DNA from: a virus
DNA length: 24,836 nt
Strand: one strand, 5' to 3'
IMG/VR virus record: IMGVR_UViG_3300038319_000021
Coordinates: 1-24,836 of that record
Under the pieces are notes generated by a model. It had not been told where the DNA came from and did no database searches. It worked only from the letters and a program-made list of their open reading frames with translations. The position numbers and the translations under genes are program-made. This document shows, piece after piece, positions 1,259-15,093 of this stretch; within the stretch, counting starts at the first letter, position 1, and every line of letters starts with the position of its first letter.

Positions 1259-1327
1259 CCCTCCAATAAGGTCGAGCGGGAGGTGTATTGGCACCTCCCA
1301 ACTCTAGCCCAGGGAGCAACCCCTGAG
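1259..1327 (-). promoter_or_regulatory. HEG-associated pseudoknot RNA element, copy 1
   Basis: In minus-strand order: hairpin H1 CTCAGGG/CCCTGGG (1321-1327 with 1308-1314), then CTAGAG; stem S1 GGGAGGTG (1292-1299) with CACCTCCC (1278-1285); and the loop CCAATA (1286-1291). The loop is the exact complement of TATTGG (1263-1268), which runs straight into the SD of the GIY-YIG gene. CTCGACC lies between S1 and the pseudoknot strand. Folding would hide the GG of the GGAGG site. Four further copies with different but still complementary stems precede other nuclease genes. Confidence 0.8.
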
Positions 1328-1341
1328 GTTCTTACATTATA

Positions 1342-2838
1342 TCATCGTCTCCAAGTTACGTACCTAAAACCTTTGCCATCGGTGGTTTTGACGAAGCCCT
1401 TACCTGCGATTTGTAAGGTTACTAAGTCTGACGCGCTGTACTCTTTGTCCCCAACTTTAATAGCGTCACGAATCAAGTTGTTGGGCCTTGCAGCTATATA
1501 CACTGGTTTCCCTGTGGAAACTGACGTTGCTGCTGCTTTGGTTGCTACGGCCTTCTTGGCTGTGGCTGCTGCGACACGTCCTGCTGCGCTGCCCCCTTTA
1601 GCATATCCTGGGTAGCGGCTCTGGATGGTCTTGGTCACAATGTCGTTGGCAATTGCTTCCAACTTGGCATTGTGATATGCCACAATCTTGGCACGATCTG
1701 GAGACTTCTGCTTCCACATCGATCCAATCTGAGTCTGATACGCCTTGTCGGCTTTGAGTGCTTCATAGAAGCGCGTCTTGATTCCGTTGCCGAGGTCAAC
1801 TTTAGTCTCGTACGGGAAATCTTTGAAGAAGGGCATCTTCAAGAACGAACCGAGATGCTTACCGAGCACGCGGTTATTATTCTTGTCGCACTCCTCTGCA
1901 ACTCCGTTCTGGAATTCCTGAGTCTTGCGCTTCGCATCTTCCGTCTTGGTTGCTTCGAATGCTGCCTTCTCTTCCAAGAACTTTTTGCGCTCCGGTGAGT
2001 CAGTTGGTTCCACTGGCTTCGCAGTCTTTTCTAGGTCTGCGTACCAATCTCCCATGACTTTAGCAATCTGTGCCAGCATCTGGTAGTTGGGTGCGGATTC
2101 GCCTTTTTCGTTCTTTGCGTTCAAGGCTTCATTGATCTGCTTGAGCTTTACGTCTAGCCCTACTTCTTTAATGCCTTCGAAGAAGTGTGGAGTGAACGTA
2201 TCGTAGTACGCCTGCGAATCGTGGTTCTTCAGTTTAGCCAAGAACGACGGAGCCAGCTTACCAAGAGCCTCAGGATGCCCTGAAGACTTCAGGTCGTCAA
2301 TGACGTTATCCCATAGGCGGCTATCGGCCGCGTAGAGCAGTTCGTCTGTTGCAGCCACAGCGTCTGCTGCTTCTTGCATTTTAGCGTAGCCATCGGCACC
2401 CCCAATGGACTCAATGAACTGCTTTGCTTCCTTGGCAGCTGCCACTGTGGGGAACTCTGTCTTGTACGCATTGAACCTTTCATACGCGCCGTGCAGCTCT
2501 TTAACTACCTGGGCATTCTTGGGGTCTGAGTCCCTCATCGCTTTTAGGGCTTTGCGTACGTTGTCAGGGGTGGCCTTCGTGTCGATGGCCTTATCTGACT
2601 CTGCTTTTGCTGCGGCAGCTTTCTTGAAGGTTTCTACTTGCTCTGGTGTTTTTTCGCTGCCATCTGCATTAGTTGTTTCGGTTTCCGTGCCTTCTTCGGC
2701 TCCTTCAACTACTTCTGTTGGAGTTTCAACTACTTCTGAGTCTACTTCTGGTGTTTCATCTACTACTGTTTCTGAGCCTGCTGCTGGGTCTACGACTTGT
2801 GCATCCAAAGATGCAAAGTCAACTAGAGCATCGGACAT
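1342..2838 (-). CDS. Scaffold-like / head-assembly protein
   Basis: 498 aa, strongly charged. An acidic N-terminal 80 residues (many Glu/Thr/Val, for example EVDSEVVETPTEVVEG) precede a helical, Lys/Glu/Ala-rich middle likely to form coiled coil. An Ala/Lys-rich hinge lies near residue 420, followed by a small basic C-terminus ending VTWRR. No enzyme motif is visible. Its place between the portal and the probable capsid gene, and its composition, fit an internal scaffold guiding capsid assembly; this is inference from synteny rather than recognised homology. A hairpin terminator/attenuator lies between it and the portal. Start ATG has GAGAC upstream. Confidence 0.55.
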   Translation of the reverse strand: MSDALVDFASLDAQVVDPAAGSETVVDETPEVDSEVVETPTEVVEGAEEGTETETTNADGSEKTPEQVETFKKAAAAKAESDKAIDTKATPDNVRKALKAMRDSDPKNAQVVKELHGAYERFNAYKTEFPTVAAAKEAKQFIESIGGADGYAKMQEAADAVAATDELLYAADSRLWDNVIDDLKSSGHPEALGKLAPSFLAKLKNHDSQAYYDTFTPHFFEGIKEVGLDVKLKQINEALNAKNEKGESAPNYQMLAQIAKVMGDWYADLEKTAKPVEPTDSPERKKFLEEKAAFEATKTEDAKRKTQEFQNGVAEECDKNNNRVLGKHLGSFLKMPFFKDFPYETKVDLGNGIKTRFYEALKADKAYQTQIGSMWKQKSPDRAKIVAYHNAKLEAIANDIVTKTIQSRYPGYAKGGSAAGRVAAATAKKAVATKAAATSVSTGKPVYIAARPNNLIRDAIKVGDKEYSASDLVTLQIAGKGFVKTTDGKGFRYVTWRR

Positions 2839-2875
2839 AATGTTGAGTCTCTTTTCTGAGTTTTATTCTGAGTCT

Positions 2876-2901
2876 AACAAAGGAGGACCGTTAGGCCCTC
2901 C
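2876..2901 (-). terminator. Hairpin between portal and scaffold genes
   Basis: On the minus strand GGAGGGCC, loop TAAC, GGTCCTCC (one G-U pair) is followed by TTTGTT. It resembles a weak intrinsic terminator or attenuator. It lies directly after the portal stop and could set the ratio between portal and the more abundant downstream head proteins. Confidence 0.45.
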
Positions 2902-2906
2902 CCTGT

Positions 2907-5555
2907 TTATTTCTGTGGCGGTGCCCCTGCAGTTGGTGGTGCTTGTGCAGGTTTAGGCTCTGGGTGTTCCAGTGCCTGTGGTAGTACTTTGGCTGCGACC
3001 TTGTGGTTCAACGCTTGGTCTGTTTGCTGTTGGAACATATCAGGCGTGGCTTGAATTCCAGCCTTGCTTAATGCTTGAACAGCGACAGGTGGAGGCATCT
3101 TAGATACGTCAATGCTGATAGATTCAGAAGGTGGTTTGTCTGGAGCCTTGTTAGCTATAGCTATCTTCTTAGCCATCGCTACGTGTTCTGCCCAGTGCAA
3201 ATGCACATTCTCAAAACCTGCGCGTTGCTGCGGCGTTCCATTCTTAAATTTTTGTCCTTCGGTGCTGTTGATCCACTCGAAGCACTCGTTCGCTTCAACC
3301 GCGTGGTTTTCGCTTTCATCTTGTGCCACAGGGATCGTACTGACCATCTTTGGCATTTGCTGCACTGCCTGGGTCATCTGGGTCATCTGCTGCACTAGCT
3401 CAGGGGGTACTGGTTGTCCAGTAACTTGGGCCTCATGTGCTTGCATCTGTATGTTTTCCCCTGCATCTTGCATCTGTATCAATTGCGGGTTTGGCATCGG
3501 ACCTTGCCGCAGAAGAACTTCGAATTCTGACTTCTGCTTCAACGCTGATGTTGCGCCGGGAATCTTGATGCCCTTGATACGCAACGCACTGAGTACTGCA
3601 GGTGCGTTCTGTGGAGCCATCATATAGCCATTCAGTATTGGGTTCGCAGCGGCCTTGTCAATCATATCCATGATCTTGGTTTCTTTCTGTTGCCAAGATT
3701 CTGGGAATGCTGGGTTGCTCTCTGCGTAGCACAGCACCTTGCCACTAAGCAAGTTCGCTGTGTTCACTGTGACGTTTCCACGTCCAGGGATGTTCTGAGC
3801 TATCTCTTTACCGTCGCGGCATTCTGCCGCACACTCTACCGCTTGTCCTGCAGCTATAGCGAACAGGTCTTGAATATTATTCCACGGACATCCTACGCGC
3901 TGTAATGCTTGGTCGCGCTGGATGATTGCGTTTCCTACGGTGTTCTCACCAGTCGCTGCCCCGAATAAGGAAGGCAGTGCGCCTGAGATTTCTTCAGACA
4001 GACTTGTGATAAACCATTTAATGAAGTCTCCCAGTGCCGACTGTGGCTGCGGAGTAGGCTCGACCATGATGTACTGGTCCATCGTGGTGAGTCCAGGCTG
4101 AACCTGAAACGGTCCTGTGCTGCCTGGGACGTTGGTTTGTTTGGCTATTGCTTCCAAATCAAATGCTTCGGCGTTCATCCATTTCTTGGGGACGGTTCGT
4201 TTGAAGAAGTCGTCCAGAAGGTCAACCCAATCGTTGATTCTCTTCTGCACCGAAATAAGGGATGTGCCCATCGACCTGCGGTTTTGTCCTTTGCCTGATG
4301 TCGGGTGTCCGATAGCAAGATGTTTATCCATGCTCTCATTGCGTGCAAACGCAAATTCGGCACCTGCTCGCGCCATAAGCACTCCATCAGGAAATGCTTC
4401 TAACAACTCTGCCTTTGCCTCGTCGCCTACCGAATCATCAAGGAACATCGAAGGACGCAACCAAGTGTACTTGATCGTTGTGTGCCGTACTAAGGATTCG
4501 CCTGTTACGTAGTTGCCTACAACGGCTTGACGTACGTTCTCGCGTGCGATCCTGTCCAGCTGTGTTTCTGACATCCCATCGGTACCGACTGTGATCTTGC
4601 TAGCGATCCACGGAAAGGTTGCCCTTGCGGTGGTAACGTCTACGTCGAACATCAGCTGGATAAATGGAGTGTCTTTAAATTCGTCAACGGAAATGGAAAT
4701 TTTGTGATCCAGTTTTCCGTGCACTGTTGTAACTTCTCGTCCCAACGGCTTCTTTGCGTTCTGACTGGAACCGCTTGCTCCAAGCAGCTCATCAATGGTA
4801 TCGCCACCCTCTGCTGGGGAAGTTGTTTCGTCTATGAAGGACTCTTGTCCTTCTTGTCCAGTCGGGTCCATGTTAGGAGGATTTTGCTCATCCTCAGGAA
4901 CCATGGGCTCTTCTATTTGGTCTTCTTCGAAGCCATACTTCTGCCCGTTCAATTCATAACGGGTCCATAGAAGTACACGGTCTTCGTTCCAAAAGATTCT
5001 TGCACAGTCAACTAGCAGTGCGTGTAGGTTGTTGTTTCTTGCCCAGATGTCTTTGAAACGGTCGGCTTCTTCTGCCGCTACGTTGTCCGGTCCCCATTCA
5101 GGATTCATGGGGAAGAACTCAACCTTTGGAATCTCGCGTGACAGAGCGGCAACGATGATGTCGCCTTTGGCTCCGTACACGTTCGTATCATAAATCGAGT
5201 TGTGATTGTTCTGCGAATTCTTTCCAAAGCCCGTACCAGAACCTGGCAGTTCCCAGCCACCTTTACGTGCTCTCAGCAAATGCTGGTAGCCTCTTTCAAA
5301 ATGAAGAGCCTCCCAGGCCTGCTCCACTTCCATTCTTCGCGCCGCAACATCGGTCTTTGTTGCGATGTTATCAAGCTGAATCAATGCGCCTCGCGCTTTG
5401 TCGCTCAGCTCTGCAAACGGCTCTGGACTGTAAGGGAACGGTGCGTATACACCCAGAGGGCTGTCATTAGGACTTTCAGGCTGGGCGTCAGTTCCGCCCT
5501 TCTTTCCACCTTCAGTGCCTGTCCCTACATCAACAGGAACGTCATTCGTTGCCAT
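2907..5555 (-). CDS. Portal protein
   Basis: 882 aa, long for a portal. The dodecameric portal forms the DNA entry channel at one capsid vertex and docks the terminase. Evidence is its size, its place two genes after packaging and small virion genes and before the scaffold, and features usual in large phage portals. These include an N-terminal alpha/beta body with YGAKGDIIVAAL and PKVEFFP, a central helical region (MGTSLISVQKRINDWVDLLD), the segment SGALPSLFGAATGENTVGNA, and a Gln/Met-rich helical C-terminus ending in a Pro/Ala tail. An acidic insertion occupies about residues 210-265. ATG with GAGGG upstream, 26 nt after the preceding gene. Confidence 0.82.
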   Translation of the reverse strand: MATNDVPVDVGTGTEGGKKGGTDAQPESPNDSPLGVYAPFPYSPEPFAELSDKARGALIQLDNIATKTDVAARRMEVEQAWEALHFERGYQHLLRARKGGWELPGSGTGFGKNSQNNHNSIYDTNVYGAKGDIIVAALSREIPKVEFFPMNPEWGPDNVAAEEADRFKDIWARNNNLHALLVDCARIFWNEDRVLLWTRYELNGQKYGFEEDQIEEPMVPEDEQNPPNMDPTGQEGQESFIDETTSPAEGGDTIDELLGASGSSQNAKKPLGREVTTVHGKLDHKISISVDEFKDTPFIQLMFDVDVTTARATFPWIASKITVGTDGMSETQLDRIARENVRQAVVGNYVTGESLVRHTTIKYTWLRPSMFLDDSVGDEAKAELLEAFPDGVLMARAGAEFAFARNESMDKHLAIGHPTSGKGQNRRSMGTSLISVQKRINDWVDLLDDFFKRTVPKKWMNAEAFDLEAIAKQTNVPGSTGPFQVQPGLTTMDQYIMVEPTPQPQSALGDFIKWFITSLSEEISGALPSLFGAATGENTVGNAIIQRDQALQRVGCPWNNIQDLFAIAAGQAVECAAECRDGKEIAQNIPGRGNVTVNTANLLSGKVLCYAESNPAFPESWQQKETKIMDMIDKAAANPILNGYMMAPQNAPAVLSALRIKGIKIPGATSALKQKSEFEVLLRQGPMPNPQLIQMQDAGENIQMQAHEAQVTGQPVPPELVQQMTQMTQAVQQMPKMVSTIPVAQDESENHAVEANECFEWINSTEGQKFKNGTPQQRAGFENVHLHWAEHVAMAKKIAIANKAPDKPPSESISIDVSKMPPPVAVQALSKAGIQATPDMFQQQTDQALNHKVAAKVLPQALEHPEPKPAQAPPTAGAPPQK

Positions 5556-5581
5556 ATTCCCTCATCTCCCTTTACTACTTC

Positions 5582-5968
5582 TTAATGCCGCATTGCGGCA
5601 AACCCTTTGGCCGATGCTTTCATGTGCTTAACGTGAGAGCTATCTCTCGGCTTGGGTTCTTTCTGTGCTGCTGTCAACTTCTTATCTTTGGGAATGCCGA
5701 GGGCTTCGTGCAGTCCGCCTTCATGGACTGTGAAACTGCCCTTGTCTCCCAGGTTGACATTATGTTTCTTATGTCCGATTGCCATGGGTTCTCCTATGCG
5801 GCTCGCATTGAACCGCGTGCTAATTGACCTCGTTGCCTTCGCATTGCTGCCTTTACGAATCCCCATGGTCACACGCTTGAATGACGTTGGGTTCTGATCC
5901 TTGGCAGACAATGGAGGCTGTTGCGGAGATGCGTTCAATTTTGTTCTACGTCCCATTCCTACTGCCAC
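5582..5968 (-). CDS. Small basic virion-type protein of unknown function
   Basis: 128 aa with a GTG start, or 124 aa from an in-frame ATG at 5956. GTG is preferred because GAGGTG lies five nt upstream. The C-terminal half (GSFTVHEGGLHEALGIP, then AAQ and a His/Lys/Ala-rich tail) is of a type often seen in small phage proteins encoded next to portal genes. Function is unknown. The first 23 nt overlap the end of the upstream GIY-YIG gene in another frame, so its ribosome-binding site is supplied by the inserted nuclease gene. Confidence 0.62.
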   Translation of the reverse strand: MAVGMGRRTKLNASPQQPPLSAKDQNPTSFKRVTMGIRKGSNAKATRSISTRFNASRIGEPMAIGHKKHNVNLGDKGSFTVHEGGLHEALGIPKDKKLTAAQKEPKPRDSSHVKHMKASAKGFAAMRH

Positions 5969-6476
5969 GTTTCCACCTCAATTTTGCAGATGCACTCATT
6001 TTCTTTTTTGTTTCTTCTGAAATGAACCTAGTAGCCATAGCCAAACTTACTTTTTTCTTGTGCTCGGCACTGAGGTGTCTTCCAAGAAATCCTTTACTAA
6101 GGACTCTTCCTTTTAATGCATCGCTTATCTTTTTGCGCTGTTCGGTAGTGTGCTTCTTTCCCATGTGGGATTTTCTAAGTCGCTCTATAGTTTCTTCTGA
6201 GCGTTTCATTCCTGTGCAATTTACTTTAGGAGGATTTTCTCCTCCATCGGTAAGGTTCCTAAGAAGCCCTAGTCCCAAATCTTTGCGACCATAGTACCAG
6301 ATAAGGGCTACTTCTATTTCAAATGCTTCGGATTCATCCTTAGCAATATAGAAAACAATTCTACCCAAAGGAGGAGCACTTCCAACTCTGTGTTTTCTAT
6401 AGGCCCTTATGCCTGTTCCCTTTCCAACGTAGTAAGGAGAACCGTCACTTCTCAACCACACATATGTATAAAACAT
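5946..6476 (-). CDS. GIY-YIG homing endonuclease with NUMOD3 repeats
   Basis: 176 aa. The GIY-YIG domain has FYTYVWL (2-8), YYVGKGTG (15-22), EVALIWYYGRKDLG (55-68) and NLTDGGE (74-80). Residues 90-170 carry about four NUMOD3 repeats (KRSEETIERLRKSHMGKK; TTEQRKKISDALKGR; SAEHKKKVSLAM; SEETKKKMSASAK), which track along the DNA target. The N-terminal 22 residues are close to the other GIY-YIG protein at 605-1255, so the two share origin. The start at 6476 has GGAGA upstream; pseudoknot element 2 sits in front. The end overlaps the next gene. Confidence 0.88.
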   Translation of the reverse strand: MFYTYVWLRSDGSPYYVGKGTGIRAYRKHRVGSAPPLGRIVFYIAKDESEAFEIEVALIWYYGRKDLGLGLLRNLTDGGENPPKVNCTGMKRSEETIERLRKSHMGKKHTTEQRKKISDALKGRVLSKGFLGRHLSAEHKKKVSLAMATRFISEETKKKMSASAKLRWKRGSRNGT

Positions 6477-6480
6477 TTTA

Positions 6481-6552
6481 TCTCCTATCAAGATCGAGAG
6501 GGAGGTGTGATAGGCACCTCCCAACTCTAACCCAAGGCCGCTAAACCTTGAG
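6481..6552 (-). promoter_or_regulatory. HEG-associated pseudoknot RNA element, copy 2
   Basis: H1 CTCAAGG/CCTTGGG (6546-6552 with 6531-6537), then TTAGAG. S1 GGGAGGTG (6515-6522) pairs with CACCTCCC (6500-6507). The loop CCTATCA (6508-6514) is the exact complement of TGATAGG (6484-6490), whose GG begins the SD. S1 equals that of copy 1, but H1 and the pseudoknot strands differ and remain paired, with the G-U in H1 kept at the same place. CTCGATC replaces CTCGACC. Confidence 0.8.
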
Positions 6553-6565
6553 ATGCTTCAAAACT

Positions 6566-6748
6566 CTAGGCCGCACGCATACTTCCGCGAGCAAGTTGCC
6601 CACCGGAGTCTATACGAGGACGTTTCCTACGAGGAGGAGTTTGCGGTGCCTCTCCCTGCAACCAACTAGGCAATGGCGTGGAATTTACAGCTGCCATGTC
6701 CTGTGCGATTGGCTGCTTCTTCTTCTTTGGTGATCCTAGGCCAATCAT
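6566..6748 (-). CDS. Small Pro/Lys-rich protein, unknown
   Basis: 60 aa, basic and proline-rich (GSPKKKKQP, PRRKRPR), probably disordered. ATG overlaps the TGA of the preceding gene by four nt (ATGA), with GGAGG about five nt upstream, so it is translationally coupled. Its family is not recognised. Together with the next three upstream genes it forms a string of small virion-type proteins between the phosphatase-like gene and the portal. Confidence 0.6.
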   Translation of the reverse strand: MIGLGSPKKKKQPIAQDMAAVNSTPLPSWLQGEAPQTPPRRKRPRIDSGGQLARGSMRAA

Positions 6749-6966
6749 TTTTCCTCCCAGAAACGGCAGTATGCTACCGCGTGTACCTTGACATCACCGT
6801 TGGGAAGTTTAGGACGCGCAGACAGTTCCTTCATCTTCGGCCCATTGCATCCACTCTCCGACTTGACGAAGTGTTCGCAATTGAAGCAATGCTCCGAACT
6901 TCCTGGGTGATGCGACTGATACCCAGTCTTTGGTTCCTTGATAATGCTGAAGACGGTCTTAGCCAT
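6745..6966 (-). CDS. Small cysteine-containing (metal-binding) phage protein
   Basis: 73 aa starting MAKTVFSIIKEP. It carries CFNCEHF, a further Cys in SGCNGPKM, and the terminal YCRFWEEK. The four Cys could bind zinc or an iron-sulfur cluster. Small phage proteins with this CxxC...YCxFW layout are common and uncharacterised. The ATG lies inside the last codons of the upstream gene (AATGGCTAA arrangement), indicating translational coupling. The longer reading from 7065 has no support. Confidence 0.6.
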   Translation of the reverse strand: MAKTVFSIIKEPKTGYQSHHPGSSEHCFNCEHFVKSESGCNGPKMKELSARPKLPNGDVKVHAVAYCRFWEEK

Positions 6967-7120
6967 TGGTTTTCTTTCTTCCAAGGCCAGTTGCTTTCTT
7001 CTTCTCTGGCAGAGTTTTGAAATCGGTGGCGCTGGACCACTCTGCCAACTTACTCTTCCCTCCAACTTTCTCGGGATGAGCGTACAAAAATCTTTGTTGC
7101 GCCTTTGACTGGAACGGCAT
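6959..7120 (-). CDS. Small phage protein of the PFQSKAQ type
   Basis: 53 aa. It begins MPFQSKAQQRFLYAHPEKVG, a start seen in many small, uncharacterised phage proteins near head and tail genes. The rest is Lys-rich and polar (KTLPEKKKATGLGRKK). The ATG overlaps the TAA of the phosphatase-like gene (TAATG), with GGAGG eight nt upstream. No function assigned. Confidence 0.65.
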   Translation of the reverse strand: MPFQSKAQQRFLYAHPEKVGGKSKLAEWSSATDFKTLPEKKKATGLGRKKTNG

Positions 7121-7830
7121 TAGGAAGCCTCCGGGTTTTTCTTTTGATCGTTTTCGTCTCTTTGTCCGCAGATGACTTTGGCCGTCCAATCGCCGTTTGT
7201 TTTGGGATACATCTCAAAAACTCCTGCCTCATCCATATCTAGAACTGTCCTGTCACCAAACAACAATTCACTGATCCTTCGACATGCTGACCCAGATAAA
7301 ACCAAAAGAAATGGCCCATCCTTTTTGGATGATTTTTCTTTCTTCTCTATCCAAGAATCCAAACGATCTGTAAACTGCGCATATGACTCTCCGTCTGGTG
7401 CGGATTTGTGCGGGTTTGCAATCAAGTCTTTGACTACCTTCTTATTGGGTTTCTTTGGGTCGCCTGCCATGCTTCCCAAATCCCAAGTCTTGATGTCGTT
7501 AACTACTTTCACACTGGGATCAGAAGTTATACCGGATTTAAGTATGTTTGCAGTTTCTTTGGTTCTGAGAAGATCAGCTGTAAATATGGTAGTGATTGGG
7601 AGTTCTTTTAGATGCTTTGCAAGAACTACTACTACGTTCTTTCTTCCTTCGTCATTAAGAGGAAGGTCCAACCAACCGTCCGAACGATGCAAATCATCCA
7701 AAGCAGTTTGCCCATGACGTACGCCATAAATCTTTTGCTTAGCCGAATCAGACGTGTGCTCAGCATCATAACGTCTCTGCACAAACTTTGATCCAAACTT
7801 TTTGTATGGATTTGTAGTTGATTGGTACAT
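7120..7830 (-). CDS. Histidine phosphatase-like protein (phosphoglycerate mutase fold)
   Basis: 236 aa. Residues 34-41 (IYGVRHGQ) contain the RHG motif whose His is phosphorylated in this superfamily. LLRTKETA (about 105-112) matches the second conserved Arg block, and PDGESYAQFTDRLDSWI the Glu region. At the place where a second catalytic His is expected (usually V-S/G-H-G) it reads LVLSGSACRR, so that His seems absent and activity may be altered or lost. The first 25 residues precede the domain and resemble the start of the protein at 8920-9402. Start ATG has AAGGA upstream. Confidence 0.72.
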   Translation of the reverse strand: MYQSTTNPYKKFGSKFVQRRYDAEHTSDSAKQKIYGVRHGQTALDDLHRSDGWLDLPLNDEGRKNVVVVLAKHLKELPITTIFTADLLRTKETANILKSGITSDPSVKVVNDIKTWDLGSMAGDPKKPNKKVVKDLIANPHKSAPDGESYAQFTDRLDSWIEKKEKSSKKDGPFLLVLSGSACRRISELLFGDRTVLDMDEAGVFEMYPKTNGDWTAKVICGQRDENDQKKNPEAS

Positions 7831-7839
7831 GACTGTTCC

Positions 7840-8348: not shown

Positions 8349-8350
8349 AC

Positions 8351-8593
8351 TCACTTCCTAAAGCTATCACTGGCCGGATTAGGCGATGCGGGGAGAAGTC
8401 CGAGGAAGTCTTCAATGTGAAGGCATTCTTTCAAATTAGGGCACGCGTCATTGGGTTTCGCCACTGCGATCTTCCCGTTACAGTAGTCATTGCCCGCTGT
8501 CGCATCGTAGAGAATGCCGACAACTGGCCCGCCATACCCGAGCAATACAACCTTGTCACCATTCTTTGCTACTCGTCCATTCGCGTAGTGCAT
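8351..8593 (-). CDS. Small 80-aa protein with GDKVxxLG motif
   Basis: Begins MHYANGRVAKNGDKVVLLGY, close in layout to NGKVVNAGDRVTVQGRV of the neighbouring ORF at 8916, so the two are paralogues. After the motif come VVGILYDATAGNDYCNGKI and a Cys-containing tail (CPNLKECLHIEDF). AGGAG lies eight nt upstream of the ATG. The GDxVxxxG core suggests a small SH3-like beta-barrel; the role is unknown but the context is virion genes. Confidence 0.62.
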   Translation of the reverse strand: MHYANGRVAKNGDKVVLLGYGGPVVGILYDATAGNDYCNGKIAVAKPNDACPNLKECLHIEDFLGLLPASPNPASDSFRK

Positions 8594-8916
8594 AACATTC
8601 TCTCCTGTTGCGCCATCGTCGGCGCTTTCTTGGCGACCCGGGCATGATCTCCCATGTCCTCCGCCAAAGGTTTCGGAATCTCTATGGTGCGTTCCTTGTA
8701 AGTTCGGACTCGGTTACGCCGCTCAGCTTTATAATACTTGGTAGCGTGACGTTGGTAGCAAATGGTGCGCCGTAGAGGACTCGAACCTCTGGCCTCCACC
8801 GTGTCAAGGTGGCGCTCTAACCAGACTGAGCTAACCGCGCAAAACTCGACTCGACCTTGTACTGTCACGCGGTCTCCCGCGTTTACAACTTTTCCATTTG
8901 CATTGAATGCGGCCAT
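8569..8916 (-). pseudogene. Small GDRVTVQG protein gene interrupted by tRNA-Val
   Basis: The ATG at 8916 has GGAG seven nt upstream and starts four nt after the previous stop. It opens MAAFNANGKVVNAGDRVTVQ, then GRVE, clearly related to the 80-aa gene at 8593. After 24 codons the frame enters the tRNA-Val gene and the remaining residues are a translation of tRNA and flanking DNA. Past the tRNA another frame reads FATNVTLPSIIKLSG, and may be the displaced 3' end of the original gene. I read it as a gene split by tRNA acquisition. The frame stays open to 8569, so a chimeric 115-aa protein is formally possible. Confidence 0.55.
8763..8840 (-). tRNA. tRNA-Val (anticodon GAC)
   Basis: Acceptor GCGCGGT (8834-8840) pairs with ACGGCGC with a single G-G mismatch. 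There is a standard D-arm TAGCTCAGTCTGGTTAGAGC, anticodon stem CCACC/GGTGG with loop TTGACAC, T-arm AGAGG-TTCGAGT-CCTCT, discriminator A and an encoded CCA (8763-8765). It lies inside an otherwise open reading frame (8569-8916), interrupting a small paralogous protein gene. Confidence 0.93.
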
Positions 8917-8919
8917 GGA

Positions 8920-9402
8920 TTACTCCAGTCCAGGCATCTGGAAGCCATCTTCCTCTGCCGCTGCAGGTGCTGCGTGTTGCGCTGGTTTCTCGCTCTCGTC
9001 AACTTCTGGTGCATGCATGCCAGCAAGTTTGCGACCAGCTTCGTGCGCTTTGTGTCCGTCTTCGTGCATCTCGGTGTGCATATGACCATCTTTGTGGTGT
9101 GAGGTGACGGTGTGGCGTCCAGCTTTCTCGTCGTGATGTACAATGATTTTGTGTGCAGGGCCATGCTCTGTTACGACTGGATGCTGCTCGCCTTCATGTT
9201 GCTCTTCGCCTTCGTTCTCTGTTTTGTGTTCTGTTGCGCCCTCTTGTTCACCTGCTTCGAATTCTGGGGTTTCTTTAGCTTCGTGCTCAGGGGACTGCTC
9301 ACCTAGTTGGTGCATGCCGTCTTCGCTGTGCATTTCATCGTATTTTTTACCTACCATCGCGGACCCGAACTTCTTACCGGGACTTTTCTTCGACTCGTAC
9401 AT
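8920..9402 (-). CDS. Acidic His/Glu-rich protein, unknown
   Basis: 160 aa starting MYESKKSPGKKFGSAMVG, chosen over the ATG six nt upstream because GGAG is seven nt away. The first 25 residues match the N-terminus of the phosphatase-like protein (MYxSxxxPxKKFGSxxVxxxYDxxH). The rest is extremely Glu- and His-rich (for example KIIVHHDEKAGRHTVTSHH and HMHTEMHEDGHKAHE), suggesting a disordered or metal-binding body. It ends FQMPGLE. The function is unknown. Its SD lies within the upstream HNH gene, whose last 29 nt overlap it. Confidence 0.65.
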   Translation of the reverse strand: MYESKKSPGKKFGSAMVGKKYDEMHSEDGMHQLGEQSPEHEAKETPEFEAGEQEGATEHKTENEGEEQHEGEQHPVVTEHGPAHKIIVHHDEKAGRHTVTSHHKDGHMHTEMHEDGHKAHEAGRKLAGMHAPEVDESEKPAQHAAPAAAEEDGFQMPGLE

Positions 9403-9799
9403 TTTCATCTCCTATGTGCTTCTCTAAGTATTCTGCCGCTAGTCTGCAAAGCTCTGGGTTATCTCCAAAGAATCCTATTCCTACATTACATTTCCTGTGA
9501 AGAAACTCCCTTAGCTTATTAGTCTGGTGGTTATGATCTAAGTAAGCATCGTCGCCCAGAGGTAGTTTGCATAGCCCGCATAAATCTCCGGCGTCCCTTT
9601 GCTTCTGACGCAACGCCAAGTATGTCTCTAAAGATATACCAAAACGTTTGCGTACATTTTCTACTCTGCGGTCCCGGTTATCTGGGTGTGTTTTTCTGAA
9701 CTTTACCTGATAACATGCTTTACACAAACCTTTGCCCTGGTACTCCGCTTCTGGGTGACAAGTGGGCACACTTCTTGAGCCAGGAATTCCTGTTGGCAT
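9374..9799 (-). CDS. HNH homing endonuclease, endonuclease VII-like
   Basis: 141 aa. N-terminal Cys residues (C14, C26, C29) form a small zinc site. The nuclease core has CGLC (74-77), LDHNH (87-91), HRKCNVGIG (101-109), then a C-terminal helix DNPELCRLAAEYLEKH. This layout is that of the recombination endonuclease VII family (beta-beta-alpha metal fold), often used by phage homing genes. The start at 9799 has GGAGGAG five nt upstream and pseudoknot element 3 in front. The last 11 codons run out of frame over the next gene, suggesting insertion at its start. Confidence 0.87.
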   Translation of the reverse strand: MPTGIPGSRSVPTCHPEAEYQGKGLCKACYQVKFRKTHPDNRDRRVENVRKRFGISLETYLALRQKQRDAGDLCGLCKLPLGDDAYLDHNHQTNKLREFLHRKCNVGIGFFGDNPELCRLAAEYLEKHIGDENVRVEEKSR

Positions 9800-9802
9800 T
9801 TC

Positions 9803-9872
9803 TCCTCCACTAAGGTCGAGAGGGAGGTGTAGTGGCACCTCCCAGCTCTAACGCTGGGTAATTAATCCAGCG
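9803..9872 (-). promoter_or_regulatory. HEG-associated pseudoknot RNA element, copy 3
   Basis: H1 CGCTGG/CCAGCG (9867-9872 with 9852-9857), then TTAGAG. S1 GGGAGGTG (9836-9843) pairs with CACCTCCC (9822-9829). The loop CCACTA (9830-9835) is the exact complement of TAGTGG (9807-9812), which abuts AGGAG of the HNH gene. CTCGACC is present. The 9-nt H1 loop (ATTAATTAC) nearly equals that of copy 5 (ACTAATTAC), while the stem differs by a C-G to T-A type pair change. Confidence 0.8.
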
Positions 9873-9875
9873 ATT

Positions 9876-10097
9876 TTACTTACTGCATCCGCCTAAAATT
9901 TCTTTGATCTTCTTGCTCAAGCTCTCACACGAAGTGCATGTGAACTTCTCGGGTTCCGAATAGCCTGAACTAGGAACCCAACCTTTTCGCTGCGAGAGCG
10001 TTTGTTTCTGTTTGCGAGTAACTTCGACGCGGTAAGCTTCTTTGCCGTCCACTTCTTCGCAAGTGATGTAGATGTTGCTGATCTTTTCTTTAGCCAT
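9876..10097 (-). CDS. Small CxxC-containing protein, unknown
   Basis: 73 aa. It starts MAKEKISNIYITCEEVDG, then a basic beta-rich stretch and FTCTSCESLSKKIKEILGGC. The three Cys in the C-terminal half might bind metal. The ATG lies inside the stop region of the upstream coiled-coil gene (AATGGCTAA), so translation is coupled. Family not recognised. Confidence 0.6.
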   Translation of the reverse strand: MAKEKISNIYITCEEVDGKEAYRVEVTRKQKQTLSQRKGWVPSSGYSEPEKFTCTSCESLSKKIKEILGGCSK

Positions 10098-10470
10098 TGG
10101 CTGCTGCCTTCTTGGCGGCTGCTGCCGCTTCTGCTGCGTCTAACTCTGCGTTCTTCCTGTCGTGCTCTTCAACCTGCAGTTGCCATGAGGACTTCATGGG
10201 CGGCGAATTGAAGTTTAAAAAACTAGGCTTCTCTGGGTTCTTGGCTGATGGGTCTATGCCAACACGGCGGTTGACGTTGACTTGGTACATCGCAACCGTA
10301 GCAGATAATTGCACTTTCTCACTGCGTAGTTCTGAAATCACTATGTCTTTCTCTTGACGAAGTGTTTGCATGTCCATACGCAGCTGCGCAAGGTCGCCCT
10401 CCAGCCTGCGTATCAAAGACGAGTGAAACAAGTCTTCGAAGAACAGTCTAACTTTTTCTGCGAATCTCAT
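10090..10470 (-). CDS. Coiled-coil protein, unknown
   Basis: 126 aa beginning MRFAEKVRLFFEDLFHSSLI. Residues about 20-60 form a likely coiled coil (RRLEGDLAQLRMDMQTLRQE onward). A loop contains NRRVGIDPSAKNPEKP and the C-terminus is an Ala/Lys helix. The ATG at 10470 overlaps the preceding TGA (ATGA) and is preferred to the in-frame ATG at 10488 inside the upstream gene. Its place after the terminase suggests a small structural role, which is inference. Confidence 0.6.
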   Translation of the reverse strand: MRFAEKVRLFFEDLFHSSLIRRLEGDLAQLRMDMQTLRQEKDIVISELRSEKVQLSATVAMYQVNVNRRVGIDPSAKNPEKPSFLNFNSPPMKSSWQLQVEEHDRKNAELDAAEAAAAAKKAAANG

Positions 10471-10676
10471 TGAGTCTCCAAAGCGCACAGCAATGCGCGT
10501 GCGAGCTTTAGTAGCACATCTGGAGACAGCACTGCAGCTGCAGTGTCACCGCATGTTCCGTCTCCCCACGCTGCTGATCTAACAGTTAATGAGATGTCCC
10601 CATTTTCTTCTCGGTTAATCGACACATACTGTGGGTAATTACCAGGATCAGTGTGTGCAAATATGTTTTTTCTCAT
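10467..10676 (-). CDS. Small unknown protein
   Basis: 69 aa. YPQYVSINREENGDISLTVR looks like two beta strands; GDTAAAVLSPDVLLKLARAL is a C-terminal helix. Such short alpha/beta proteins are common in phage genomes and lack known function. The ATG overlaps the TGA of the upstream HNH gene (ATGA), whose 3' end contains its SD (GGGAG). Confidence 0.6.
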   Translation of the reverse strand: MRKNIFAHTDPGNYPQYVSINREENGDISLTVRSAAWGDGTCGDTAAAVLSPDVLLKLARALLCALETQ

Positions 10677-11119
10677 TGAGTCTCCCTATAATCAATCTCT
10701 TTGTCGCCTTTACTGCAGTTACAGGGCAAACAAAGAGGTTGAATATTTGAAATCCAGCTTGTTCCGCCTTTTGAAATCGGCAGCACATGGTCTGCAGTTA
10801 GTGGTTTTACTTCATCGCAACATAGGCACCTATTGTCGTATGCCTCGCATAAGTCTAACCACTCTTGGGCAGTAAAACTTCCACCTGCTTCGGTTTTCTT
10901 TGTGCGCCTAGCAATACAGTATGCAAGGTACTGAGTTCTGTGCTTCTTTGCATACGCTGACGACACCGAGTTTACATGCCCTCTATCTTTGTCTCTCCAT
11001 CTAGCACTAGCTTCTTTAGCCCTATCTGGGTGCGCAGCATAATACCGTGCGCTTCTAATACGTGCGTTCTCCTTCTTTGTTTCCTCAGAAGGTTCAAATC
11101 CTTTTTTCGGTCTTCCCAT
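10673..11119 (-). CDS. HNH homing endonuclease (McrA-like)
   Basis: 148 aa. A Lys/Arg-rich N-terminal half probably contacts DNA (RIRSARYYAAHPDRAKEAS). The C-terminal HNH domain is classical: CLCCDEVKPLTADHVLPISK (98-117) with catalytic H111, NIQPLCLPCNCSKGDK with N125 and a CxxC zinc knuckle (C130, C133). It sits directly behind the terminase gene and is preceded by pseudoknot element 4. The ATG has GGAGGAG upstream. Its end overlaps the next gene by four nt. Confidence 0.88.
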   Translation of the reverse strand: MGRPKKGFEPSEETKKENARIRSARYYAAHPDRAKEASARWRDKDRGHVNSVSSAYAKKHRTQYLAYCIARRTKKTEAGGSFTAQEWLDLCEAYDNRCLCCDEVKPLTADHVLPISKGGTSWISNIQPLCLPCNCSKGDKEIDYRETQ

Positions 11120-11122
11120 TTC

Positions 11123-11194
11123 TCCTCCATATAAGGTCGAGCCTAGGGTGTATATGGCACTCTAGGCTCTAGCTCATGCTGATCAAGGCATGAG
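11123..11194 (-). promoter_or_regulatory. HEG-associated pseudoknot RNA element, copy 4
   Basis: H1 CTCATGC/GCATGAG (11188-11194 with 11173-11179), then CTAGAG. S1 GAGCCTAG/CTAGGCTC, one A-C mismatch, then GTG/CAC (11139-11150 with 11158-11169). The loop CCATATA (11151-11157) is the exact complement of TATATGG (11127-11133), which abuts AGGAG. S1 is entirely different in sequence from copies 1-3 but pairs as well, so this copy is the clearest case of compensatory change. Confidence 0.8.
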
Positions 11195-11204
11195 ATTCTT
11201 CAAA

Positions 11205-13622
11205 TTATTTATTCATCCAAACTGGGGACTCAGGCTGTCGGAAGCATACAGTTCTGTTTTCTTGCTCTGCGTTCTTCTTTTGTTGGTAAAACCACGCAGC
11301 GAGTGGATCGGTTTTTGCTAATTCTTTTACTCTGTCTCTGTACACATCCGCCGCTGGTTTGTTCTTCGCCCCTAATTGCCCATACAGTCCGTACCGGAAC
11401 CCGTCGTATGCATCATCCCCCTTGGCGTCTACTTTAAGAACGTCGTCCATCAAGTCAGGATTTCGCATCAACGAAGGTATTGCTAGAATTATCTCCTTGC
11501 AATTATCGAGTATGGCTAGTTCACCTTTTTTGAAGGCGTTGTACATAAATGAAGCCGAACTTATACGGTCTTGTGTTGCTCTCGTAACTGGCGGCAAGCC
11601 TACTGCACGCAGAGCGCGTGAGTACTCATCCGCTGGGGTATGTGCCATACCCGCTATTCCTGCGCCGCTTCTGTTGAACTTTTCATGAGAGAAGAATATA
11701 TTTTTAAGTTTTACTTGTGTGCCGTTTGGCAATACGCATTTCTGTTTAATAATGGATGCCAACTGGTCGAATGTCTTGCCTCCGGTGGTAACTACTTCGG
11801 CAAAACAAACTGTCTTAAGATTATAATCTTCCCCTACTGCATTCTTTACTAGGGCCTTGGTGAATAAATATGTGGCATTAGCGTGCTGCATGCCCCAATC
11901 GGCTCCCGCCCAGCAAGGTTGATACTCTTGCCAGATAATTGCATCCGGTTCTTCTCGTAGATTGATGACGTGGTATGTTGGATCGAAGCAGTCGAAGTAT
12001 TGTCCTTCTGTCACTCCATCCAAGCCGTACAGTACCTTGTCACGTTTTGCTTTTGGCATTGACTCCAAACGTTGAATGATGCCAGGGTCACGATCTAACA
12101 GCTGCTGGTTATCCAGCACTGTCGAACGTTGGTACGCATACATGTTCGGGTCATAAATCTTGATCCACTGCCCCGACTCAATTGACCACCATGTTCCATC
12201 CACGTCTTGTCGCGCATCTTCTGGTGGGTTCCATGGACGCTTGTCTACAAACAGTGTTCTGTAATACTCGTAGTGCGGACCCAATGGGTTCGTGCACCCT
12301 ACGATGGCAGGTATTGGCAAGTTTCCAGCGGCATCACGTGCACAAGCTGGGTTGACAATGTTACGTTGAAACAGCATCATCCATGCGTCTGGAGAGAACT
12401 GACCACATTCGTCAACCAGAATGGCGGGATATGCTTGTCCAAGATATTGTTCAATGTCTCGGTCTTTATTGTTCTGACAGTTGTGAACAAGCACACCATT
12501 GGCAAAGAACTCATGCTCTTCTTCAACTTGTAAGTCAAATACTGGTACAGGTTCTGAGGTAATCTGCTCGGAAGGCGTTGCCACAGTTAACGTCACAAAA
12601 TCGTTTCTTTTTTGTTCTGGCGATAATTGGTTTGCCACATTCCCAGCACATGCTTTCCCACGGCTCGCGGAGCAACGGTCTTCCGCTGCGTCCAATACCA
12701 TAGGGGGCGTGGTGAATTCTGTGCTCCCTAACGGGAAGCAGTTCGTAGTTGCTGCCATCAAAGGGGTTGTTAAGAGAGTTTTCATCCTTGTGATGAACTT
12801 CGAAACCCTGTGGAATAGTCCCACGTATGCTCTCGTAAATAGCGACGTGGAGATAGGCTTTGATTCCGTTTCTCCATCCTTTGTAGTACACGCGATCAGA
12901 CCTTCTACTTGAGTCTGGATACCTGTAGTAGACAACATCTTCGAATACGACGGTTTGTGACACAGCAGGTGCACAGTCTTTTTTGAATCCCTTTGGCATG
13001 TAATCTCCTCTGCGGATTTCCATTCTCCATTGGCTAAGAGTTTGTGCTCTTTAGTCAGGCTTAATGGTCCAAGTTGGACGACTGCTTTGGTGCCAGTCTG
13101 CCCAGACCATAGTACACGCCTAAATCCTTTACGAGTCAATGTCGAGTCTTCTGTGGTCACTTCTTCAATGGGTACCAGACCCCGCTGTGTGGTTACTAAC
13201 GTGCCTTTGGCAAGGCAGTGTCCAAATACCACTCTGGAGCCATTGTAAAGTGTGGCAACGTGCTTCGTTGAGTCGTACGTATACAACTCTTCAGGCATGA
13301 AAGTCTTGAAATCGGCAATCGCGCCGTTTTCCAATTCCTTGAAGTTTCTACGCAGCACCAAGATATTGCAGTTGTCAAACGCCAAGCAATAGTGCATTAC
13401 GAAGTACATCAGCCATCCGCAGGTTTTACCTGATCGGATTCCGCCAGTGCTCAAATTCTGCGGTGCTGCTGGCTGGATGTAGGCTTTGCCATTTCGCACT
13501 ATGTAGCGAAGCAGCTCCTGTTGCTTTGGCTGGAATTTGAAAATCTTATCAAAGTTCAGTGTCCCGTCTGCATTCAGGTAGTGCTTCTTTGGCTTTTCTT
13601 CTACTTGTTTCTTTCTGGGCAC
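11205..13622 (-). CDS. terL: Terminase large subunit precursor with intein
   Basis: 805 aa precursor; 559 aa after removal of a 246-residue intein (136-381). The packaging motor has an ATPase with Walker A GGIRSGKT (60-67) and Walker B ILVDECG (401-407), and a C-terminal RNase H-fold nuclease with WAGADWG (D575) and KGDDAYDGF (D736-D740). It docks on the portal, pumps DNA into the prohead and cuts concatemers. The intein is placed between Walker A and Walker B, a typical conserved insertion site. The start is GTG with AGAGG eight nt upstream. It follows the probable small terminase by 11 nt. Unspliced protein should be inactive. Confidence 0.93.
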   Translation of the reverse strand: MPRKKQVEEKPKKHYLNADGTLNFDKIFKFQPKQQELLRYIVRNGKAYIQPAAPQNLSTGGIRSGKTCGWLMYFVMHYCLAFDNCNILVLRRNFKELENGAIADFKTFMPEELYTYDSTKHVATLYNGSRVVFGHCLAKGTLVTTQRGLVPIEEVTTEDSTLTRKGFRRVLWSGQTGTKAVVQLGPLSLTKEHKLLANGEWKSAEEITCQRDSKKTVHLLCHKPSYSKMLSTTGIQTQVEGLIACTTKDGETESKPISTSLFTRAYVGLFHRVSKFITRMKTLLTTPLMAATTNCFPLGSTEFTTPPMVLDAAEDRCSASRGKACAGNVANQLSPEQKRNDFVTLTVATPSEQITSEPVPVFDLQVEEEHEFFANGVLVHNCQNNKDRDIEQYLGQAYPAILVDECGQFSPDAWMMLFQRNIVNPACARDAAGNLPIPAIVGCTNPLGPHYEYYRTLFVDKRPWNPPEDARQDVDGTWWSIESGQWIKIYDPNMYAYQRSTVLDNQQLLDRDPGIIQRLESMPKAKRDKVLYGLDGVTEGQYFDCFDPTYHVINLREEPDAIIWQEYQPCWAGADWGMQHANATYLFTKALVKNAVGEDYNLKTVCFAEVVTTGGKTFDQLASIIKQKCVLPNGTQVKLKNIFFSHEKFNRSGAGIAGMAHTPADEYSRALRAVGLPPVTRATQDRISSASFMYNAFKKGELAILDNCKEIILAIPSLMRNPDLMDDVLKVDAKGDDAYDGFRYGLYGQLGAKNKPAADVYRDRVKELAKTDPLAAWFYQQKKNAEQENRTVCFRQPESPVWMNK
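12480..13217 (-). mobile_element. Intein in terminase large subunit
   Basis: 246 codons. The N-terminal splicing block begins CLAKGTLVTT (Cys1); the block B-like PLSLTKEHKLL carries the conserved His. The C-terminal blocks read VPVFDLQVEEEHEFFANG and VLVHN followed by extein Cys+1. Splicing would join GH to CQNN. No endonuclease motif is visible in the intein's own frame. Instead an HNH gene lies between blocks B and F in another frame, and the intein frame stays open through all of it. Confidence 0.93.
12535..12999 (-). CDS. HNH endonuclease nested out of frame in the intein
   Basis: 154 aa from ATG at 12999, with GAGGAG five nt upstream. The HNH_3-like core is FEVHHKDENSLNNPFDGSNY (67-86), LLPVREHRIHH, with H69/H70, N84 and H93. 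The C-terminus has a zinc ribbon (CWEC at 118-121, C135, C139). It overlaps intein residues about 74-228 but is read in a different phase, so it is made independently and not as a domain of the intein. It probably mobilises the intein allele. A possible extended start at 13023 lacks a good SD. Confidence 0.85.
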   Translation of the reverse strand: MPKGFKKDCAPAVSQTVVFEDVVYYRYPDSSRRSDRVYYKGWRNGIKAYLHVAIYESIRGTIPQGFEVHHKDENSLNNPFDGSNYELLPVREHRIHHAPYGIGRSGRPLLREPWESMCWECGKPIIARTKKKRFCDVNCGNAFRADYLRTCTSI

Positions 13623-13633
13623 TGAGTTTGCCT

Positions 13634-14170
13634 CTATTTCTTGTTGGTGGTAATCCCTAACACTTCAGCAAAGGTCGGTGTAGTGGCTATCTTTCTTTCT
13701 TCCATCGGTTTTACATCCGGTGGGGAAACTACCAAAACAGTGTTGATGGGATTTACGACATTGCCTTCGGTGTCTATTTCTGAAGTGGGCGTCTTTCCCT
13801 CGACCAACGTGTGGAATAACTCAATCGCATCAAGCTTTACCTTAGCCATTCGTGCGTCTGGAAGTCCGGTCTTCGCGTCCGTCTCTACTTCCATGTGCAC
13901 CATTTCAATTAACTCTTCGAAGGCTGCTTCACTTTCCGACACTTCTGAGTAGCGCGGACAGATGCTTGGCTTCAACGCACGTTTACGCCTTTTTCTGATG
14001 AACTCTTTGGTCGGTGGAAGTGGCACGCTTTTCTTTGCTACGAATTTTCCACCCTCGTTCCGCAATATGGTAACTGGCTGGCCTTTTCTTTGCATCACCA
14101 TTGCAGTAACACCAGACGGATTCGATGAATCCGCCTGGGTTTGGTTCTTTGCTCCTGAGTCTTCCGACAT
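13634..14170 (-). CDS. Probable terminase small subunit
   Basis: 178 aa, directly upstream of the large subunit gene, where small terminases usually lie. N-terminal disordered segment, a basic patch FIRKRRKRALKP, then a helical acidic part (SESEAAFEELIEMVHMEVET, ARMAKVKLDAIELFHTLVEG) that could form the oligomerisation core, and a flexible tail. I see no recognisable helix-turn-helix, so the call rests on position. ATG with AAGGAG seven nt upstream. Confidence 0.45.
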   Translation of the reverse strand: MSEDSGAKNQTQADSSNPSGVTAMVMQRKGQPVTILRNEGGKFVAKKSVPLPPTKEFIRKRRKRALKPSICPRYSEVSESEAAFEELIEMVHMEVETDAKTGLPDARMAKVKLDAIELFHTLVEGKTPTSEIDTEGNVVNPINTVLVVSPPDVKPMEERKIATTPTFAEVLGITTNKK

Positions 14171-14179
14171 TACAACTCC

Positions 14180-14566
14180 TTACAGTTTCTTGAAGGTGTT
14201 CGTAACCGCGTCAAAGGTGTATTCTACTTTATCAATTCCGTAAGTCTTTAAAAGACTTTCAATGTAAGCAGTGTACTCCTTGGACTTGCTTTCAACAATC
14301 TTCTGTAGGTTGTTGATCTGCATTGTAGCTTTAAGATACTCCAGCTCTGCATTGCGGAGCACAAGCTGTTCCTCTGCTTTAATCTCTACAACTGCTTTCT
14401 TGACTGCTGCTTTCACCTTTTCTTCAACCTTGGCAACTTCTGCCTTTACATCGCCCTCGACCTTGACAACTTCCGACTTGACATCGGTGGCGATTGCTTC
14501 TGCAACAGTCTCGGCCTTCGCTTCGACTGCGGCAACTTCTGACTTCACTTCCGCTTCAATTGACAT
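14180..14566 (-). CDS. Coiled-coil protein, unknown
   Basis: 128 aa. Residues 1-65 are a low-complexity Lys/Glu/Val/Ala helix with near-repeats of VKSEV/VKAEVAKVE; residues 66-105 are a second amphipathic helix (LVLRNAELEYLKATMQINNL), and the end is a small folded tail. It is likely a structural or accessory protein. Its ATG has AGGAGG seven nt upstream. The upstream HNH gene has no stop codon before it and reads straight through it in frame, so this protein can be made either alone, by internal initiation, or as the tail of a fusion. Confidence 0.65.
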   Translation of the reverse strand: MSIEAEVKSEVAAVEAKAETVAEAIATDVKSEVVKVEGDVKAEVAKVEEKVKAAVKKAVVEIKAEEQLVLRNAELEYLKATMQINNLQKIVESKSKEYTAYIESLLKTYGIDKVEYTFDAVTNTFKKL

Positions 14567-15019
14567 TCTGAGCCTCCTATGTTTATTTAAGTAATCTGCC
14601 GCTTTAAGCAGCAACTCTGAGTTTTCCATGAAGTGCCCTATGCCTACGTTGCACATTCTGCATAGTAGTTCTCTAACCACTTTTGTAGTGTGGTCGTGAT
14701 CTACGTTAGCATCTCTTTCTTTTTCTTCTATGTGCCTTCCACATATTGCGCATTTATGGTCTTGCTTTTCCAGCATAGATAGGAATTCTTCATAAGACAA
14801 ACCATATCGTCTTCTTCTATGGTTTCTTCTCTGCCTATCTTTGTTTCTTGCTTTGAACTCTGGAGTTCTTTGACGCTCTCTATTTGCCTCAAGCATCAAT
14901 TGGTAAACTTCTGGGTTTGCTCTACGCTCTCTCATCGAGTCACGTTTATAGCACCTTTCGCATTTCTTTTTGCAATAGATAGGTGCTGATACGTCTTTAC
15001 ATTCTGTGCTTATGCACAT
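14180..15019 (-). CDS. HNH (endonuclease VII-like) homing nuclease fused in frame to downstream protein
   Basis: 279 aa as read. Residues 1-151 are the nuclease: an N-terminal zinc site with several Cys, a strongly basic linker, CAICGRH (90-96), NVDHDH (105-110), LLCRMCNVGIGHF (118-130) and the typical C-terminal helix LLLKAADYLNK. The domain should end near HRRLR, but no stop follows and the frame enters the next gene at its Met (14566). The nuclease start at 15019 has GGAGG five nt upstream and pseudoknot element 5 in front. The in-frame join suggests insertion between SD and start with loss of the nuclease's stop. Confidence 0.82.
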   Translation of the reverse strand: MCISTECKDVSAPIYCKKKCERCYKRDSMRERRANPEVYQLMLEANRERQRTPEFKARNKDRQRRNHRRRRYGLSYEEFLSMLEKQDHKCAICGRHIEEKERDANVDHDHTTKVVRELLCRMCNVGIGHFMENSELLLKAADYLNKHRRLRMSIEAEVKSEVAAVEAKAETVAEAIATDVKSEVVKVEGDVKAEVAKVEEKVKAAVKKAVVEIKAEEQLVLRNAELEYLKATMQINNLQKIVESKSKEYTAYIESLLKTYGIDKVEYTFDAVTNTFKKL

Positions 15020-15022
15020 GTT

Positions 15023-15093
15023 TCCTCCGATAGTAGGTCGAGCCGAGAGGCTATCGGGCACCCTCGGCTCTACGTTGGGTAATTAGTCCAACG
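15023..15093 (-). promoter_or_regulatory. HEG-associated pseudoknot RNA element, copy 5
   Basis: H1 CGTTGG/CCAACG (15088-15093 with 15073-15078), then GTAGAG. S1 GAGCCGAG/CTCGGCTC (15063-15070 with 15040-15047). The loop strand CCGATAG (15051-15057) is the exact complement of CTATCGG (15027-15033), abutting AGG of the HNH gene. CTCGACC is conserved. Both S1 and the pseudoknot differ from all other copies yet pair fully. Confidence 0.8.

Follow-up and report, generated by a model that had tools for sequence, protein, structure and literature searches.

A mobile pseudoknot RNA that may restrain translation of homing-type nuclease genes in uncultivated phages

The stretch of DNA analyzed here (the window; 24,836 nucleotides (nt), IMG/VR virus record IMGVR_UViG_3300038319_000021) is part of the genome of an uncultivated phage (24.8 kb). 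Portal, terminase and many small genes occupy its minus strand, and a DNA polymerase gene is on the plus strand. Five copies of one RNA element were located on the minus strand, each before the start codon of a nuclease gene and exactly where the original prediction had placed them, and none was found elsewhere in the window. On the basis of sequence comparison, we propose with a probability of about 0.58 that the element is a mobile cis-acting RNA controlling, by attenuation, the translation of homing-type nuclease genes. In the RNA sense the order is the upstream stop codon, a hairpin (H1), TAGAG, the 5' arm of a stem (S1), the loop strand, the 3' arm of S1, CTCGAYCT, the partner of the loop strand, AGG or AGA, and ATG. 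Loop strand and partner form the predicted pseudoknot (PK; helix S2), the 3' strand of which ends 7 nt before ATG in all five copies (ATGs at 1255, 6476, 9799, 11119 and 15019). The Shine-Dalgarno (SD) sequence consists of the final GG of the loop partner and the following AG(G). Bit scores below refer to the covariance model R1.

1259..1327, minus strand: copy 1; H1 1308-1327, TAGAG 1302-1306, S1 1292-1299 with 1278-1285, PK 5' strand CCAATA 1286-1291, CTCGA 1272-1276, PK 3' strand TATTGG 1263-1268, SD 1260-1264; R1 match 77 bits
6481..6552, minus strand: copy 2; TAGAG 6525-6529, S1 6515-6522 with 6500-6507, PK CCTATCA 6508-6514 with TGATAGG 6484-6490; R1 84 bits
9803..9872, minus strand: copy 3; TAGAG 9846-9850, S1 9836-9843 with 9822-9829, PK CCACTA 9830-9835 with TAGTGG 9807-9812; R1 68.8 bits
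11123..11194, minus strand: copy 4; TAGAG 11167-11171, S1 11158-11166 with 11142-11150 (one A-C mismatch), PK CCATATA 11151-11157 with TATATGG 11127-11133; R1 63.3 bits
15023..15093, minus strand: copy 5; TAGAG 15068-15072, S1 15061-15067 with 15043-15049, PK CCGATAG 15051-15057 with CTATCGG 15027-15033; R1 44.6 bits

The five loop strands and partners were exact complements, as had been predicted. The element had also been said to begin directly after the upstream stop codon, which holds in the five copies if a distance of 0 to 14 nt is allowed. The claim that S1 always pairs did not hold, given the mismatch of copy 4, and in copy 5 three bases (TGC) stand between S1 and the PK strand.

The family was collected in two stages. 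A pattern scan of IMG/VR yielded 31 stretches, and S1 and the knot were present in 28 of its 33 matches, although the pattern did not require the knot. R1 was built from 28 copies with H1 and S1, the pseudoknot being left out, and was searched on whole contigs, on portal-gene relatives and on relatives of one nuclease. By our count, about 64 uncultivated phage contigs carried R1 matches at E ≤ 0.001, with 1 to 8 copies per contig. A total of 106 distinct copies were parsed one by one, four of which were misparsed because they are broken, and three more were unparsable; the expectation of further copies near nucleases was thereby borne out.

The proposed structure and its place at the SD are supported by covariation. 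The loop strand was perfectly complementary to the strand before the SD in 102 of the 109 copies parsed or attempted, with 57 distinct loop sequences. For 58 distinct S1 loops, the longest stretch complementary to each loop's own downstream strand was 6 to 9 (mean 6.7; all at least 6), as compared with a mean of 3.4 for swapped partners, only 2% of which reached 6. Significance was assessed against a null in which every column underwent as many changes as observed, replayed on a FastTree tree; the tree is poor since it was made from short recombining pieces, and the floor of the test was E 0.04. The predicted covariation in a larger alignment was recovered for 18 of 20 tested pairs (H1 5/5, S1 7/8, PK 6/7), all at this floor; the two non-significant pairs, one in S1 and one in PK, hardly vary. 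Conversely, 18 of the 19 significant column pairs were proposed helix pairs, leaving one other. In the helix columns of the R1-aligned copies, G-U combinations far exceeded A-C ones (64 versus 10), favouring sense-strand RNA as the folding molecule. A free scan for S1, PK, SD and start codon on both strands of 1.07 Mb of contigs of this phage group returned 96 unique cases, 89 of which were known elements, versus 4 in one dinucleotide shuffle; the knot was essentially confined to positions before nucleases.

The genes behind the five copies in the window were as follows.

605..1255, minus strand: GIY-YIG homing endonuclease gene behind copy 1 (phrog_314 homing endonuclease, E 4e-12)
5946..6476, minus strand: GIY-YIG/NUMOD3 homing endonuclease gene behind copy 2 (PF07460, phrog_314)
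9374..9799, minus strand: endonuclease VII-like HNH gene behind copy 3 (PF02945, E 8e-12)
10673..11119, minus strand: HNH endonuclease gene behind copy 4 (PF14279, PF01844)
14180..15019, minus strand: endonuclease VII-like gene behind copy 5 (PF02945, E 2e-20)

When 88 downstream proteins of the family were scanned singly, most matched homing-type nucleases, with phrog_314 (33), endonuclease VII PF02945 (25), HNH (11), HNH_5 (11), HNH_3 (4) and also T5orf172/MUG113 among the profiles. The product in L064 had no profile match and appeared to be an HNH protein by eye. GIY-YIG, endonuclease VII, HNH and T5orf172 nucleases thus all stand behind copies, in line with the earlier view that the element does not merely reflect the ancestry of one gene.

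The element also proved to move without the gene behind it. Of the 17 pairs in which the last 48 nt of the two copies were at least 90% identical, 11 preceded proteins without detectable similarity, and the H1 region had usually diverged. One S1-PK segment, TAGACTCGGAGGGTGCTCCAACACCCTCCTTGAGTCGTCCTTGGAGGGACA, was identical before four different genes and was combined with at least three different H1 hairpins (L190:9846-9922, L190:17206-17282, L007:4336-4412 and L189:1599-1675). Near-identical cassettes before unrelated proteins disfavour, indirectly and at the level of sequence, regulation by the encoded nuclease of the kind known for T4 gene 32. Occupied and empty sites were compared at the following junction.

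2839..2906, minus strand: portal-scaffold intergenic junction, empty in the window; element and HNH gene present in the close relative L202

The portal gene ends in ..AAATAA|ACAGGGG in L201 and in the window, both empty, versus ..AAATAA|ACATCTCAGG followed by the element and the HNH gene in L202, the portal of which is 96% identical in this comparison. Similarly, the next start codon lies one base past the portal stop codon in L234, and the element with an HNH gene lies between in L219. For one HNH protein (77% identity), the element was present where the gene is free-standing (L225) and absent where it is inside the terminase intein of the window. This HNH_3 endonuclease open reading frame (ORF; 12535-13023, minus strand) lies wholly inside the intein part of the terminase ORF (11205-13622, minus strand) in another frame and resembles the hidden HNH of PMC11855218.

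Copies that have lost their nuclease tend to decay. PK or S1 was broken in L003+3752, L215+3483, L200+5449, L187, L196 and L237, and the SD was lost in the L230 copy. In L228 the knot was intact before a truncated gene, suggesting that decay lags behind nuclease loss.

The constant of the family is its architecture and not an unpaired motif. TAGAG and CTCGA, thought to be fixed, were so in the five copies and in the pattern-selected set; in relatives they varied together with S1 (TAGCG..CGCGA, TAGCTC..GAGCGA, TAGACTC..GAGTCG, CAGTGC..GCAA). What persisted was YA before the S1 helix and usually GA-CC or AA-CC after it, roughly YA-[helix]-GA-CC, and this flank could be read as U-A and A-G non-canonical pairs closing S1. 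Distant copies in other phages, termed type II (L246, L253, L256, L268, L328, L329), kept H1, S1, the knot and the SD with GC..AATTCT or similar instead of the YA/GA-CC motif. The GC content was 26% in the variable part of PK versus 75% in S1, the end of PK was 6-9 nt from the start codon in 83 of 92 copies (mode 7), and the upstream stop codon was mostly 1-17 nt before H1. The S1 3' arm CACCTCC was considered as a mimic of the 16S tail and rejected, since other S1 types do not have it. Nearly every copy has an H1 stem of its own (about 70), but the loops are of few types only, either UAGC/UUGC-like or longer with 6-base palindromes from loop position 3 (TGATCA, TAATTA, TTATAA, TCATGA); examples in the window are 15074-15093 and 11173-11194. 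The recurring loop types may point to a kissing or bound partner. That H1 is a general intergenic hairpin was rejected, because H1-type hairpins were found only with the element, chance matches inside genes aside.

In the mechanism we propose, a nuclease gene with its leader would insert immediately after a phage gene's stop codon, in most cases within the structural operon. S1 would be a stable hairpin, the loop of which pairs with the strand entering the SD to give S2. With the first two G of GGAGG inside S2 and the remainder abutted by it, binding of the 30S subunit and the pseudoknot would compete, and this competition would keep nuclease synthesis low or late although the operon is strongly expressed. 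H1, placed behind the upstream stop codon, would shield the knot from terminating or drifting ribosomes and from the variable upstream sequence. Nearest-neighbour duplex energies, which ignore tertiary strain, were -7.0 ± 1.4 kcal/mol for S2 and -16.4 ± 4.0 kcal/mol for S1, and pairing of SD with anti-SD gave -8.7 ± 1.9 kcal/mol over the whole region versus -3.0 kcal/mol using bases outside the knot only. These values fit a permanent S1 whose loop rivals the ribosome on nearly equal terms, which favours attenuation. We infer the direction of this control, its timing and the role of H1; the earlier suggestions that the element limits nuclease translation or prevents coupling to the preceding gene are plausible.

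The genomic context was examined for the same family. On seven contigs with a DNA polymerase gene, 31 of 31 copies were on the opposite strand, which is the portal/terminase strand where those genes were found. Among GIY-YIG and endonuclease VII genes, the canonical element was present on 18 of 34 on the structural strand versus 0 of 6 on the polymerase strand (our count; Fisher p about 0.02), a strand bias that is suggestive only. Nucleases without the element mostly overlapped the gene in front (ATGA) or followed promoter-like sequence. A sigma-70-type scan found no promoter-like sites within or just upstream of the five copies and no excess over shuffles. In L290, L296 and L300 the copies have promoter-like sequence of their own and keep S1, the knot and the SD with no adjacent H1, and L289 carries a divergent full element. 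The lack of H1 in the former three suggests that H1 insulates the element against the preceding gene and that the knot controls the ribosome binding site (RBS). This rule is not strict, and a strict tie of H1 to operon copies was rejected in view of L329.

Several observations weigh against attenuation of nuclease translation. The alignment used for covariation took the proposed helices as its anchors, the AGG of the SD remains free, and S2 spans the whole loop with little linker, which leaves its geometry uncertain. Translation can also be activated by a knot next to the SD, as in timP (PMC11228461). L329 has promoter-like sequence yet keeps H1, and the conservation of H1 loop families hints at a partner molecule. 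Finally, one copy precedes a non-nuclease gene (L200:1739-2731), which is followed by an overlapping GIY-YIG gene. The product of L200:1739-2731 (331 amino acids) is glycosidase-like by eye without a profile match and is the only clear non-nuclease behind an element.

An alternative that we regard as unlikely but worth weighing is a portable, insulated RBS, in which H1 and the knot would stop pairing of the RBS with the upstream gene and secure nuclease expression anywhere, the knot being positive or neutral for initiation. Insertion a few bases past the stop codon of many different genes would suit it, as would the presence of the element on about half of the structural-strand nucleases, the others having start-stop overlap or promoter-like sequence, and a translation-essential pseudoknot is known in timP (PMC11228461). 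Two hairpins would be enough for this purpose, yet S2 always includes or abuts SD bases and costs about 5.7 kcal/mol of SD pairing.

Rather speculatively, control by the nuclease leader could be a recombining module, in which H1 and S1-PK are swapped independently, a stage-specific infection factor is sensed through the H1 loop and UA/GA-CC, and the PK strands drift fast under the pairing constraint. More doubtful, though with the insulated RBS one of the two main rivals of attenuation, is an operator at which a factor acting in trans, of phage or host origin (protein, RNA or small molecule), would stabilize or open the knot at a given stage, in the way S15 and gp32 act on their mRNA pseudoknots. 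The semi-conserved unpaired UA..GA-CC beside S1 and the recurrence of a few H1 loop types across some 70 different stems agree with such an operator, but the motif is missing in type II copies and no factor was identified.

A self-cleaving or other catalytic RNA separating the nuclease from the upstream message is highly improbable: a compact 70-nt pseudoknot with few fixed bases would suit one, but no Rfam ribozyme matched at an element, the fixed bases are different in type II copies, which share the architecture, so that no conserved catalytic core is seen, and the strongest constraint sits at the SD. The new ribozyme offered as an option by the original prediction is thus disfavoured. Hardly to be entertained either is a DNA-level hairpin serving insertion or as nuclease target, which would account for inverted repeats and mobility but not for the excess of G-U over A-C, the kept start-codon spacing or the same cassette with unrelated nucleases.

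The preferred reading, attenuation at the RBS, has relatives among known leaders. The E. coli rpsO operator, bound by ribosomal protein S15, likewise has a pseudoknot at the translation start of its gene, and differs in being autoregulated by a ribosomal protein. Stable hairpins over the RBS are known for T4 I-TevI, I-TevII, I-TevIII and segB and for Aeh1 mobE (PMC2988022, PMC3014915), where the SD of a homing endonuclease gene in a phage is structured in the RNA and translation from host-operon transcripts is held down. The present element, too, takes in or adjoins the SD of such a gene, as in this RBS-sequestering class (I-TevI, mobE type). Unlike the T4 and Aeh1 structures, which are reported as gene-specific plain hairpins, it belongs to a pseudoknot family common to unrelated nucleases and moving between them; I-TevI is relieved by a late promoter omitting the 5' arm, whereas no promoter was seen between the arms of the present element by the sigma-70-type scan. 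In seg43 of Aeromonas phage 25 (PMC2988022), a stable hairpin stands just upstream of the RBS of a homing endonuclease gene without covering it, but it is a single hairpin with no pseudoknot and no family. T4 gene 32 mRNA (PMC3014915) shares a phage leader pseudoknot for translational control and differs in that its knot lies 67 nt ahead of the start codon and is bound by the protein that the gene encodes, whereas the present knot overlaps the SD and precedes genes for unrelated products. The knot of timP (PMC11228461) also governs RBS access, but it is needed for translation and belongs to a toxin mRNA. By this comparison, the present RNA is akin to the I-TevI and mobE hairpins in place and probably in purpose, and is a distinct RNA family.

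No description of this RNA was found in open-licence papers, and a search with Rfam 15 covariance models at E up to 1 gave nothing but matches to tRNAs and group I introns and a single weak one to a snoRNA, all of them outside the elements, in agreement with the earlier statement that no described family has this layout. Some of the elements have group I introns in their vicinity (L204:4628-4842, L200:5580-5793, L253:854-1063), which are separate from them. Nearly the same pattern as in the IMG/VR scan gave 61 matches in 84,980 bacterial and archaeal species genomes, none convincing as S1 and PK at an SD. INPHARED isolates gave no megablast match and no portal match. No such knot was present at short element matches in phages of Vibrio and Yersinia or in the leaders of ten GIY-YIG relatives.

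Phage genomes have homing endonucleases as their main parasites, and what stops these from damaging the genes on which they travel is known for a few T4 and T4-like cases, each reported with its own hairpin. An RNA architecture that unrelated nucleases share and exchange, and that decays once the nuclease is gone, suggests that the control of expression is itself passed on as a module. About 100 natural variants, which have the same pairing in different letters, make it testable why and how these selfish genes are regulated, and the family is also a compact collection of natural ribosome binding sites gated by pseudoknots.

On the plus strand of the window, a putative nuclease ORF without a pseudoknot leader (20522-21037) overlaps, in a different reading frame, the DNA polymerase gene at its 3' end. 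An HNH-like ORF (17569-18000, plus strand) starts with MPEFIAPLKPL, versus MPEFITPLKPL in the DNA polymerase ORF that follows it (from 17985, plus strand), a duplicated gene start.

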